A stretch of DNA of 37,086 nt. Origin: Acidobacteriota bacterium. GTDB taxonomy: Bacteria; Acidobacteriota; Terriglobia; Acidiferrales; UBA7541. Position numbers and translations under genes: made by a program. Below are positions 12,820 through 31,679 of the stretch, one piece after another. Position 1 is the first letter of the stretch. Every line of letters begins with the position of its first letter. The notes under the pieces were generated by a model. It was not told where the DNA came from. It did no database searches and saw only the letters and a list, made by a program, of their open reading frames with translations. The DNA is taken from the NCBI GenBank assembly GCA_003224145.1, contig QHYN01000214.1, positions 1 to 37,086 on the forward strand, given 5' to 3'.

Positions 12820-12974
12820 AGCCCGCAGTAGACCGAGATTCAGATCTTTGGCGGCCATTCCCAACCCCCAGCCCGCGCCCGCCTTCGGCGCAACTGCACA
12901 TGGACGTAGCAACGAAAAGAGAGTACTGTTCGCCCCATCCGCTCCCAAGAAAATTTTCCTTCAGGAGAAAATCC

Positions 12975-13418
12975 ATGCCGCGACGGCGATTTCTGGCGCA
13001 ACTCGTCTCCTTGCCATTTCTCGGTTTGAGTTCTCAGGCCGAGGAACCCAAAAAGCCATTGAAGATTCTAATGAAAAGTGACTGGGGCTCGGATGACCCC
13101 ACCCGCGCGTCCTTCCCTTTCCTGCATGGAATCGCCCTTGCCGAAGCCGGTCACGAGGTGCGAATCTTCCTTCTTGGCGAAGCCACCTCCCTCATGCGCA
13201 AAGCTACCGCCAATGCCATCGTTCCCGTCGGCTGGCCACCCCTCAGCGAAACCCTCGAAAGAGTGGTCGCTAAACGCATTCCCGTCTTTTCTTGAGGGTT
13301 CTGTTCCCGGGCCCGCGGGATCACGGAAACCGACTTGAATCAGTGGGGAGCAAAGTTCGGCAGGCCGACAATTTTTGTGGGCCTTGTCGAATGGGCCGGC
13401 CGCATCATCGTCGAATAG
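12975..13418 (+). CDS. Exported DsrE-family protein with in-frame TGA at a conserved Cys position (candidate selenoprotein)
   Basis: From ATG 12975 (CAGGAG 8 bases upstream) the frame encodes a signal peptide with a twin-arginine-like start (PRRRFLAQL), then a DsrE-like domain beginning KPLKILMKSDWGSDDPTRA. At 13293-13295 a TGA interrupts codon 107. The same frame then continues without a shift to TAG 13416-13418 with clearly homologous sequence (GFCSRARG, TETDLNQWGAKFG, TIFVGLVEWAG). I recall relatives carrying a CGxCxRARG motif at this place, so the TGA falls on the first Cys and would give U-G-F-C, a Sec version of CxxC. The full product would be 147 residues, a normal length; stopping at TGA would give 106 and lose the redox motif. 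Alternatives are a nonsense mutation or a sequencing error (TGC/TGT to TGA). A stem-loop starts just after the TGA. Domain family is fairly secure; the selenocysteine reading is an inference. Confidence 0.75.
13297..13331 (+). promoter_or_regulatory. SECIS-like stem-loop just downstream of the in-frame TGA
   Basis: A hairpin starting one base after the TGA: outer stem GGTT (13297-13300) with AACC (13328-13331), then TG/CA (13302-13303 with 13322-13323), a T-T mismatch, and an upper stem TCCCG (13305-13309) with CGGGA (13316-13320). The six-base loop is GGCCCG. Bacterial SECIS elements lie inside the coding region shortly after UGA and usually have a G in the first two loop positions, as here. 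The loop begins 14 bases after the TGA, slightly closer than typical. Local GC richness could produce such a hairpin by chance. Confidence 0.4.
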
Positions 13419-26136: not shown

Positions 26137-26517
26137 ATGGTGAAGAAACTGCTCGCTCTGGTGTTTACGTCCTTGCTCGTCTTCTCGGCGTCGGCTCCGC
26201 TGTTCGCCCAAGAAGCCGCCAAGGAAGAGAAGGCGGCCAAGCCGAAAAAAACAGAGCAGGCCCGCTGGGAAGGTATCGTCGTCAGAAGTAGTTCTGAAAA
26301 ATCCACCTTGGACGTCCGCAAGAGGGGCGGAAACATCGAAAAGACCATTCACTACGACAGTTCGACGAAATGGACCAGCCAGGAACACGGCAGCAAAACA
26401 GTCAACAATATAACTGCTGCCGATGTTAAGGATGGTGATCGGGTGATCTGCGTGGGGACATATGACGAGAAAGGCGACTTCCACGCCACTCTAATCTCCA
26501 AGCGGCTCACGAAGTAG
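26137..26517 (+). CDS. Small secreted protein, paralogue of the gene at 31043-31420
   Basis: A 126-residue exported protein with a clear signal peptide (MVKKLLALVFTSLLVF, cleavage likely after LFAQ), a lysine/alanine-rich linker (about 25-42), and a beta-rich domain resembling DUF5666-type OB folds. Its pattern is W-E-G-I-V-V-R, a serine-rich turn, STLDVRKRGG, HYDSSTKWT, and VKDGDRVICVGTYDEKG ending in HATLISKRL. An excellent AAAAGGAGGAGG site precedes ATG 26137. About half of the domain positions match the second copy at 31043. Function is unknown; OB-like secreted domains often bind ions or carbohydrate, but no binding residue can be picked out here. Confidence 0.8.
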   Translation: MVKKLLALVFTSLLVFSASAPLFAQEAAKEEKAAKPKKTEQARWEGIVVRSSSEKSTLDVRKRGGNIEKTIHYDSSTKWTSQEHGSKTVNNITAADVKDGDRVICVGTYDEKGDFHATLISKRLTK

Positions 26518-31042: not shown

Positions 31043-31420
31043 CTATCGGGGAAGTCGCAAATCGATGCGACTCGCGTGCAACACGCCTTTGTCGTCGACA
31101 TGGCCGAGCACGATAATAAATGAGCCTTCCTTGAATTCGCTCTCCTCGGCTGGCTTTCCCAGCTTGGTCCAATGGGTTGAGCTATCGTAGGCGATCTTCT
31201 TCTGATCACTGTCCATATTTTTCAGCCCACCACGGAGGTCTATCGTTGATTCTTCTTTATTGATCCGAACAATATGGCCCTGCCACTTCGTCTCTTTTGC
31301 CTCCTTCGCCTCTTTCGTTGCTGGTTTCTTCTCCTCCTGGCTACCGTGGCCAGAGATTGGGTAACCAGCTATCGCCACCCCTGCGAGTACGAGGGTCGAC
31401 AAAACTAATGAACGCTTCAT
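31043..31420 (-). CDS. Small secreted protein, paralogue of the gene at 26137-26517
   Basis: A 125-residue exported protein: signal peptide (SLVLSTLVLAGVAIAG), a charged K/E/A linker, then W-Q-G-H-I-V-R, E-E-S-T-I-D-L-R-G-G, YDSSTHWT, FKEGSFIIVLGHVDDKG, HASRIDLRL. These line up with the copy 4.5 kb away in the same order and spacing, so the two derive from a duplication. ATG 31420 is preferred over the one at 31432 because GGAGG ends 5 bases before it. It diverges from the kinase-like gene (260 bases between starts). Function is unknown. Confidence 0.8.
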   Translation of the reverse strand: MKRSLVLSTLVLAGVAIAGYPISGHGSQEEKKPATKEAKEAKETKWQGHIVRINKEESTIDLRGGLKNMDSDQKKIAYDSSTHWTKLGKPAEESEFKEGSFIIVLGHVDDKGVLHASRIDLRLPR

Positions 31421-31679
31421 AGCATCCTCCATGTTTGAGCAACGACTAACGCCGTTGTACGGTTACCAACGGTAGGTTTACGCGGGAGAGCATAGTCCGA
31501 GCATGGAAAAGAGTAAAGTCAAATGTGTACGATCCCCCCCTGCGGAATCGTTACCGGCGACAGTGGCGACAGTGTGGCCGTTTCACACCTTAGCGTGCCT
31601 CGCGCCAAACAATTATGGCTTGTCGAATCGGTTGAGTGGGAGTAGAGTTGGCCGCAACGGTTCAAGGGAGGTTACTTCG

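Follow-up and report, generated by a model that had tools for sequence, protein, structure and literature searches.

An in-frame TGA very probably read as selenocysteine in a putatively exported DsrE-fold protein of a soil acidobacterium

The window, by which we mean the whole stretch of 37,086 nucleotides analysed here (contig QHYN01000214.1 of assembly GCA_003224145.1, from an Acidobacteriota bacterium), carries on its forward strand a gene of the DsrE family (12975..13418) whose reading frame raises a simple question: is the TGA codon lying within it a stop, a fault, or a signal for selenocysteine (Sec)?

The interrupted frame and its motif column

The frame running from the ATG at 12975 to the TAG at 13416-13418 holds a single in-frame TGA (13293-13295, plus strand). 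With this codon read as Sec107 it yields a product of 147 residues, in which a U-x-x-C motif, U107-G-F-C110, is completed by the TGT codon of Cys110 (13302..13304, plus strand). A Shine-Dalgarno-like AGGAG (12963..12967, plus strand), seen in the sequence itself, lies 7 nt ahead of the ATG. A gene caller treating the TGA as a stop would end the protein at residue 106. In the Pfam search, where Sec was written as Cys by the tool, the DsrE family (PF02635) matched the read-through product with 36.4 bits against a cut-off of 22.7 over residues 52-145, and the match therefore spans the TGA. The DsrE-like domain as a whole covers residues 28-147 (13056..13415, plus strand), as delineated by Pfam, by an AlphaFold2 model and by Foldseek and VIA-align matches to YchN, DsrE and TusD. 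The sequence-only reading of this DNA had described a DsrE-family frame broken by exactly one TGA and resuming as DsrE sequence up to the TAG; its coordinates proved exact and its family assignment is backed by the Pfam score.

Downstream of the TGA the frame is conserved in the orthologues, with changes falling mostly on third positions; over the 39 codons compared between the window and the homologue at locus L048, the differences number 4, 4 and 17 at codon positions 1, 2 and 3, respectively. When 50 rows were aligned, with the tool rendering TGA as C, Arg114 and the two motif positions did not vary. The part downstream of the TGA, which holds C110 and R114 and evolves under protein constraint, argues against the TGA being a true stop, under which the locus would make a truncated exported protein of 106 residues and its 3' part would be a relic or the product of leaky read-through. 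Members of this gene family do use TGA as an ordinary stop, and no stop is wholly free of read-through, yet the genome also contains the Sec-decoding genes described below, and we regard this explanation as highly improbable.

The TGA falls in a column otherwise occupied by cysteine. We compared 79 homologue rows (75 loci from a scan of named genomes together with the window, L032, L033 and L039) using a pattern that demanded C or TGA at the position, and the 70 rows readable at the motif carried TGA in 22 cases, TGC in 31 and TGT in 17. No row of the 79 has another in-frame residue in this column, because in all nine unreadable rows a truncation or frameshift falls ahead of it or in its vicinity. 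With cysteine codons in 48 of the 70 readable rows and TGA-bearing orthologues beside them, the alignment bears out the earlier proposal that the TGA stands at an expected cysteine to give U-G-F-C. Two distant plasmid homologues (34-37% identity) were found in Microvirga and Deinococcus, and that of Microvirga (37% identity) has serine at both motif positions as read by eye.

We searched the genome of the window and those of 120 relatives, 121 in all, and with the window counted in obtained 11 full-length copies of at least 66% identity, nine having TGA and two Cys. The eight other TGA copies (67-77% identity) are distributed over seven other genomes of the window's family, the Cys copies show 74% and 66% identity, and two TGA copies lie in genome G003. 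The 89 genomes that we searched for the family yielded 12 full-length TGA copies, from 10 genomes, and four Cys copies. An error in a single assembly is very unlikely to lie behind the TGA, because other assemblies show the same TGA. Seventeen of the 19 named Sec rows come from records titled MAG, and the codon is also present in two records not so titled (L104 and L114).

A nonsense mutation, sequencing error or mark of pseudogene decay that struck the motif by chance might be suspected from the 359 contigs of the assembly and from broken remnants of the gene in the genus (L035 and L045). Against it stand the TGA found at this very position in orthologues of many different assemblies and in the two records not titled MAG, the retained downstream frame with its third-position bias and the selectively frozen synonymous sites discussed below, and we consider such an accident extremely improbable. 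As for the remnants themselves, L035 (genome G026) is without the N-terminus and the whole Sec segment, and what is left in L045 (genome G018) is an N-terminal fragment, with an intact Sec copy about 3.6 kb downstream of it.

Twelve of the 19 named TGA rows close their own frame with a TGA stop, and therefore the code has not simply been reassigned. Reassignment of TGA in the lineage to another residue, for example Trp, would by construction leave the frame open, but all other readable rows have Cys at this position and a tRNA-Sec with anticodon tca is present, which leaves reassignment a practically negligible possibility.

Decoding genes and a candidate SECIS element

The genome to which the window belongs (95% complete, 4% contamination, 359 contigs) encodes selA (565 bits), selB (366 bits) and selD (344 bits), all over curated cut-offs, along with a tRNA-Sec (selC) of 66.4 bits, over its cut-off, that ARAGORN calls as SeC with anticodon tca; a check for these genes, suggested together with the selenoprotein proposal, thus found them all. 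A tRNA-Trp of the same genome, scoring 47.6, likewise lies just over the tRNA-Sec cut-off of 47, which shows that the tRNA-Sec model is not fully specific, and so it is the ARAGORN anticodon call that carries this point. In 14 well-known genomes used as controls, selA, selB, selD and tRNA-Sec were over cut-off in 1, 2, 2 and 5, respectively. Within the set of 121 genomes, all nine with a full-length TGA copy or L033 have selA, a count that leaves out L039 (genome G058, 59% complete, with no selA match) and L042 (genome G077, with TAG as well); since selA is over cut-off in 103 of the 121, this co-occurrence says little.

Apart from the present gene, selD itself (L012) has one in-frame TGA at its Sec position (motif AAGUAAK), and a formate dehydrogenase-like protein (L161), scoring below the TIGR01591 cut-off, has one in RVUHG behind the Tat-like signal TRRDFLK, bringing the number of genes with such a codon in this genome to at least three. 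This formate dehydrogenase (G000:C355; FdnG-type as assigned by eye) shares both the TGA and a Tat-like signal with our protein, although it belongs to a large molybdo-enzyme family unrelated to DsrE.

The nucleotides following the TGA appear to be constrained beyond their coding role. Synonymous sites in codons +4 to +11 are the most frozen of the compared stretch in TGA members. Synonymous codon identity over codons +4..+9 reaches 0.84 in the 16 exported Sec-clade rows, rank 3 of 109 six-codon windows with a mean of 0.465 and a standard deviation of 0.124, where ranks 1 and 2 belong to the windows starting at +6 and +5 (0.85). The same +4..+9 window in 42 Cys rows stands at 0.27 and is the freest of all (rank 109 of 109). 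The run GGGCCCGTG(G/C)GGTC is found in 16 of 21 TGA rows of acidobacterial, alphaproteobacterial and Eremiobacterota origin, and the rows departing from it are the window, L033, L051, L053 and L062.

The hairpin that we propose as a SECIS element would join nucleotides 12-19 with 23-31 after the UGA in eight pairs, with one bulge and a loop of three. In the window it is placed at 13307..13326 (plus strand), with a stem of 13307-13314 against 13318-13326, the loop at 13315-13317 and the bulge at 13323, and seven of the eight pairs can form, 13312-13320 being a C-A mismatch. Over 20 distinct TGA rows 90% of the cells are paired, a value reached by one of 500 shuffles (mean 87.0%), and three pairs are changed on both sides, as in two of 500 shuffles. 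On sliding the hairpin by one column, pairing falls to 62% and 54%; the slide by -1 also gives three doubly changed pairs, with more pair types (5 versus 4) and half the covariation score (0.045 versus 0.087). At the same positions 44 Cys rows, from which the frameshifted L106 and L107, the duplicate L084 and L032 were omitted, have 59.4% of cells paired versus 61.2% in shuffles. The loop, 20-22 nt after the UGA, falls within the 16-37 nt that passages of PMC10778597 give for the apical loop of the bacterial SECIS.

As a consensus of the 21 TGA rows, RNAalifold returned a different pair of hairpins; a rival hairpin with 83% of cells paired scored lower than the chosen one. Folding of the window's own 48-73 nt after the TGA in isolation gave no stability beyond that of shuffles (z -0.9 to +0.7); the argument for a SECIS is therefore a comparative one and does not come from energy. 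An Rfam scan of the window gave no family at gathering score. That some recoding element is under selection here is well supported by the sequence comparison, and the exact fold of the SECIS element is uncertain.

We therefore answer the opening question with high confidence: the TGA very probably specifies Sec, within an exported redox protein of the DsrE fold. The comparative sequence evidence covers the Sec codon, the decoding machinery of the genome, selection on the SECIS-like element and the fold, and Tat export, the exact SECIS structure and the chemistry are the parts that we infer. The sequence-only reading had offered the gene as a candidate selenoprotein, a proposal now strongly supported by the Cys/TGA column, the TGA orthologues, the sel genes and the frozen synonymous sites. 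In the mechanism that we propose, the hairpin lying about 12-31 nt past the UGA would recruit SelB loaded with Sec-tRNA-Sec, and the codon would then be read as Sec and not as a stop.

Fold, predicted export and possible role

The AlphaFold2 model, made with Cys at position 107, has a mean pLDDT of 90.4 and is weak only at the N-terminus, where the first 20 residues have 55-56. Residue 107 closes a strand (104-107) and precedes a helix (108-113). The top matches among solved structures are DsrE-family chains, namely YchN, a Sulfolobus DsrE/F-like protein, DsrE, TusD and others. A profile of 50 rows found matches among solved sequences, one of 12 rows found none, and the best of these profile matches was E. 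coli YchN (PDB 1jx7; E 2.8e-9), for which the Foldseek E is 1.5e-7 and Z is 16.2. The 117-residue chain of YchN aligns with residues 28-147 only and is without the N-terminal extension of our protein, and its CxxC aligns with the U-x-x-C, YchN having Cys where Sec is proposed here. The fold is shared by DsrE of DsrEFH (2hy5; Z 14.2) and TusD of TusBCD (2d1p; Z 14.7). In the alignment made with the profile, Sec shares its column with the first Cys of the YchN CxxC and with a TusD Cys, which is Cys78 by residue count. The corresponding DsrE-Cys78 is described in passages of PMC3397948 as binding sulfur and passing it to DsrC, and as the proposed active site of the superfamily.

According to the same passages, DsrEFH and TusBCD are heterohexamers that have Cys and are cytoplasmic in A. 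vinosum (PMC3397948), whereas no partner was found in the genome studied here. One DsrE-family (PF02635) match exists in this whole genome, so the gene does not belong to any DsrEFH or TusBCD set, and the DsrF/TusC and DsrH/TusB partners looked for nearby were not found.

At the N-terminus of the window's protein, RRRFL is followed by a hydrophobic stretch with a hydropathy of up to 1.79 over 12 residues. A Tat-type signal peptide, MPRRRFLAQLVSLPFLGLSSQA, is predicted at 12975..13040 (plus strand), cleavage after residue 22 being a guess. By the simple pattern RRx(F/L/A/M), a twin-arginine motif precedes the domain in all Sec rows but the four with UTAC (16 of 20) and in all Cys rows but L098 (44 of 45), and the genome's tatC scores 196 bits. 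On these sequence features the protein appears to be exported by the Tat route. The twin-arginine-like signal noted by the sequence-only reading stands, with a Tat-like motif and tatC present; its remark that a Sec redox protein outside the cytoplasm would be unusual does not, as the Tat-like formate dehydrogenase of the same genome has a TGA in RVUHG. Elsewhere in the window, two small putatively exported proteins (26137-26517, plus strand, and 31043-31432, minus strand) have the common core STLDVR/STIDLR ... YDSSTxWT and are likely paralogues.

The gene surroundings gave few clues. The neighbours in the window, named by eye from their translations, are what we take to be a TonB-type receptor and a MarC-like protein. 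Over 59 loci of at least 7 kb, and with the gene itself and ORFs overlapping it excluded, no neighbour among the 25 largest ORF clusters listed covers more than three Sec-clade loci, and none of the neighbour clusters at those loci indicates a substrate; PADLOC reported none. In five Cys relatives (L088, L099, L100, L102 and L108), a gene that by eye we presume to encode a CcdA-like membrane protein lies about 2-4 kb downstream, and this could hint at a possible electron source or thiol-reduction pathway.

The most likely role, held with moderate to low confidence, is that of a stand-alone periplasmic thiol or sulfane-sulfur redox carrier. After leaving by the Tat route, the protein would present Sec107 and Cys110 as a U-x-x-C pair at the strand-to-helix junction, at the site of the sulfur-carrying DsrE/TusD Cys78. 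The most likely chemistry would be a Sec-accelerated thiol or sulfane-sulfur redox step or a sulfur-carrier step on the periplasmic side, cycling between selenol/thiol and selenenylsulfide. The chances are about evenly balanced that the protein is a selenoprotein whose Sec serves instead as a peroxidase, a disulfide isomerase or a metal(loid)/selenium ligand, exported perhaps through the general secretory route and not Tat. This would agree with the lack of a conserved neighbour fixing the pathway, with the single DsrE-family match and no DsrEFH/TusBCD partner set seen in the genome, and with the presumed CcdA-like gene near the five Cys relatives. Our preference for a periplasmic sulfur or thiol redox carrier over other redox roles is tentative and falls somewhat short of an even chance; it draws on the alignment of Sec with the TusD/YchN Cys, to which the sulfur-binding DsrE-Cys78 corresponds in passages of PMC3397948.

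Sec and Cys forms across the family

A tree built from 72 rows, of which 66 are different, places the exported Sec rows in one group of 26 (19 Sec and 7 Cys; SH-aLRT 91), and the Sec/Cys states need seven changes over the whole tree versus about 20 in shuffles; 33 of the 63 inner branches are weak. The tree suggests repeated reversion of Sec to Cys, because Cys rows are nested within the Sec group. Acidobacteria bacterium AB60 carries a Cys copy (L064) and a Sec copy (L104) on one contig (VANK01000006.1). Besides, L111, L114, L115 and L116 from Alphaproteobacteria and Eremiobacterota form a separate signal-less Sec lineage with the motif UTAC and the same SECIS-like run, and L130 (genome G453) has its TGA in UGAC with the same run downstream. 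The copy L039, from the 59% complete genome without a selA match, belongs to a different DsrE subfamily, YchN-like by eye, and has its TGA in UTGC. The motif reads CGSC in L036 and CGTC in L043.

A distant relative in another family of the phylum, L134 (G209:C43:155208-155552, minus strand), has TGA at both motif positions (UGAU) and no further TGA elsewhere in the matched frame. Two strong hairpins follow its TGA codons (z -2.7; one of 200 shuffles as stable), the second having a stem of 7 bp and, roughly 21 nt past the second TGA by hand count, a GGUC loop. From its sequence L134 is a possible double-Sec DsrE protein; a second copy of the UxxU form was not found in 199 genomes around and including G209.

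DsrE-like selenoproteins as a kind are already known. Passages of PMC1088965 describe two UxxC sequences from the Sargasso Sea metagenome in 2005, passages of PMC1794560 describe one from Desulfovibrio vulgaris, and a 2026 review lists the DsrE-like family with UxxC in its table (part of PMC13188914). As far as these passages go, our protein resembles the published ones in its DsrE domain, in Sec as the first residue of U-x-x-C, in having Cys homologues and in a SECIS downstream of the UGA. It differs in the twin-arginine N-terminus, found in 60 of the 65 named or window rows, a point on which the passages are silent for the published members, and in a distribution of the Sec form mostly among soil Acidobacteriota. 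In the part of the review table available, UxxU belongs to a thiol:disulfide oxidoreductase (PF00578; PMC13188914), and judged against that part UxxU would be a new motif for DsrE proteins. Among open-licence papers, taken without supplements, we found none joining DsrE, selenoprotein and twin-arginine, and among those on acidobacterial selenoproteins no title concerned the present protein. The export, the Sec/Cys mosaic and the UxxU relative look new.

A wider picture, which we put forward as doubtful, is that of an extracytoplasmic selenium-based sulfur-relay or thiol-redox carrier, in which a Tat-exported DsrE-fold family spanning Acidobacteriota, Verrucomicrobiota and Proteobacteria would have acidobacterial Sec and Cys forms interchanging repeatedly, sometimes within one genome, and a distant signal-less relative (L134 of G209) with a diselenide-capable UxxU.

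Annotations of many Acidobacteriota probably misrepresent this conserved exported redox protein. Within the family the TGA codon is accompanied by the footprint of a recoding element, and Sec and Cys forms can be compared as they occur in nature, down to paralogues in one genome. The family would thus lend itself well to studying why soil bacteria retain selenium in an exported thiol protein.
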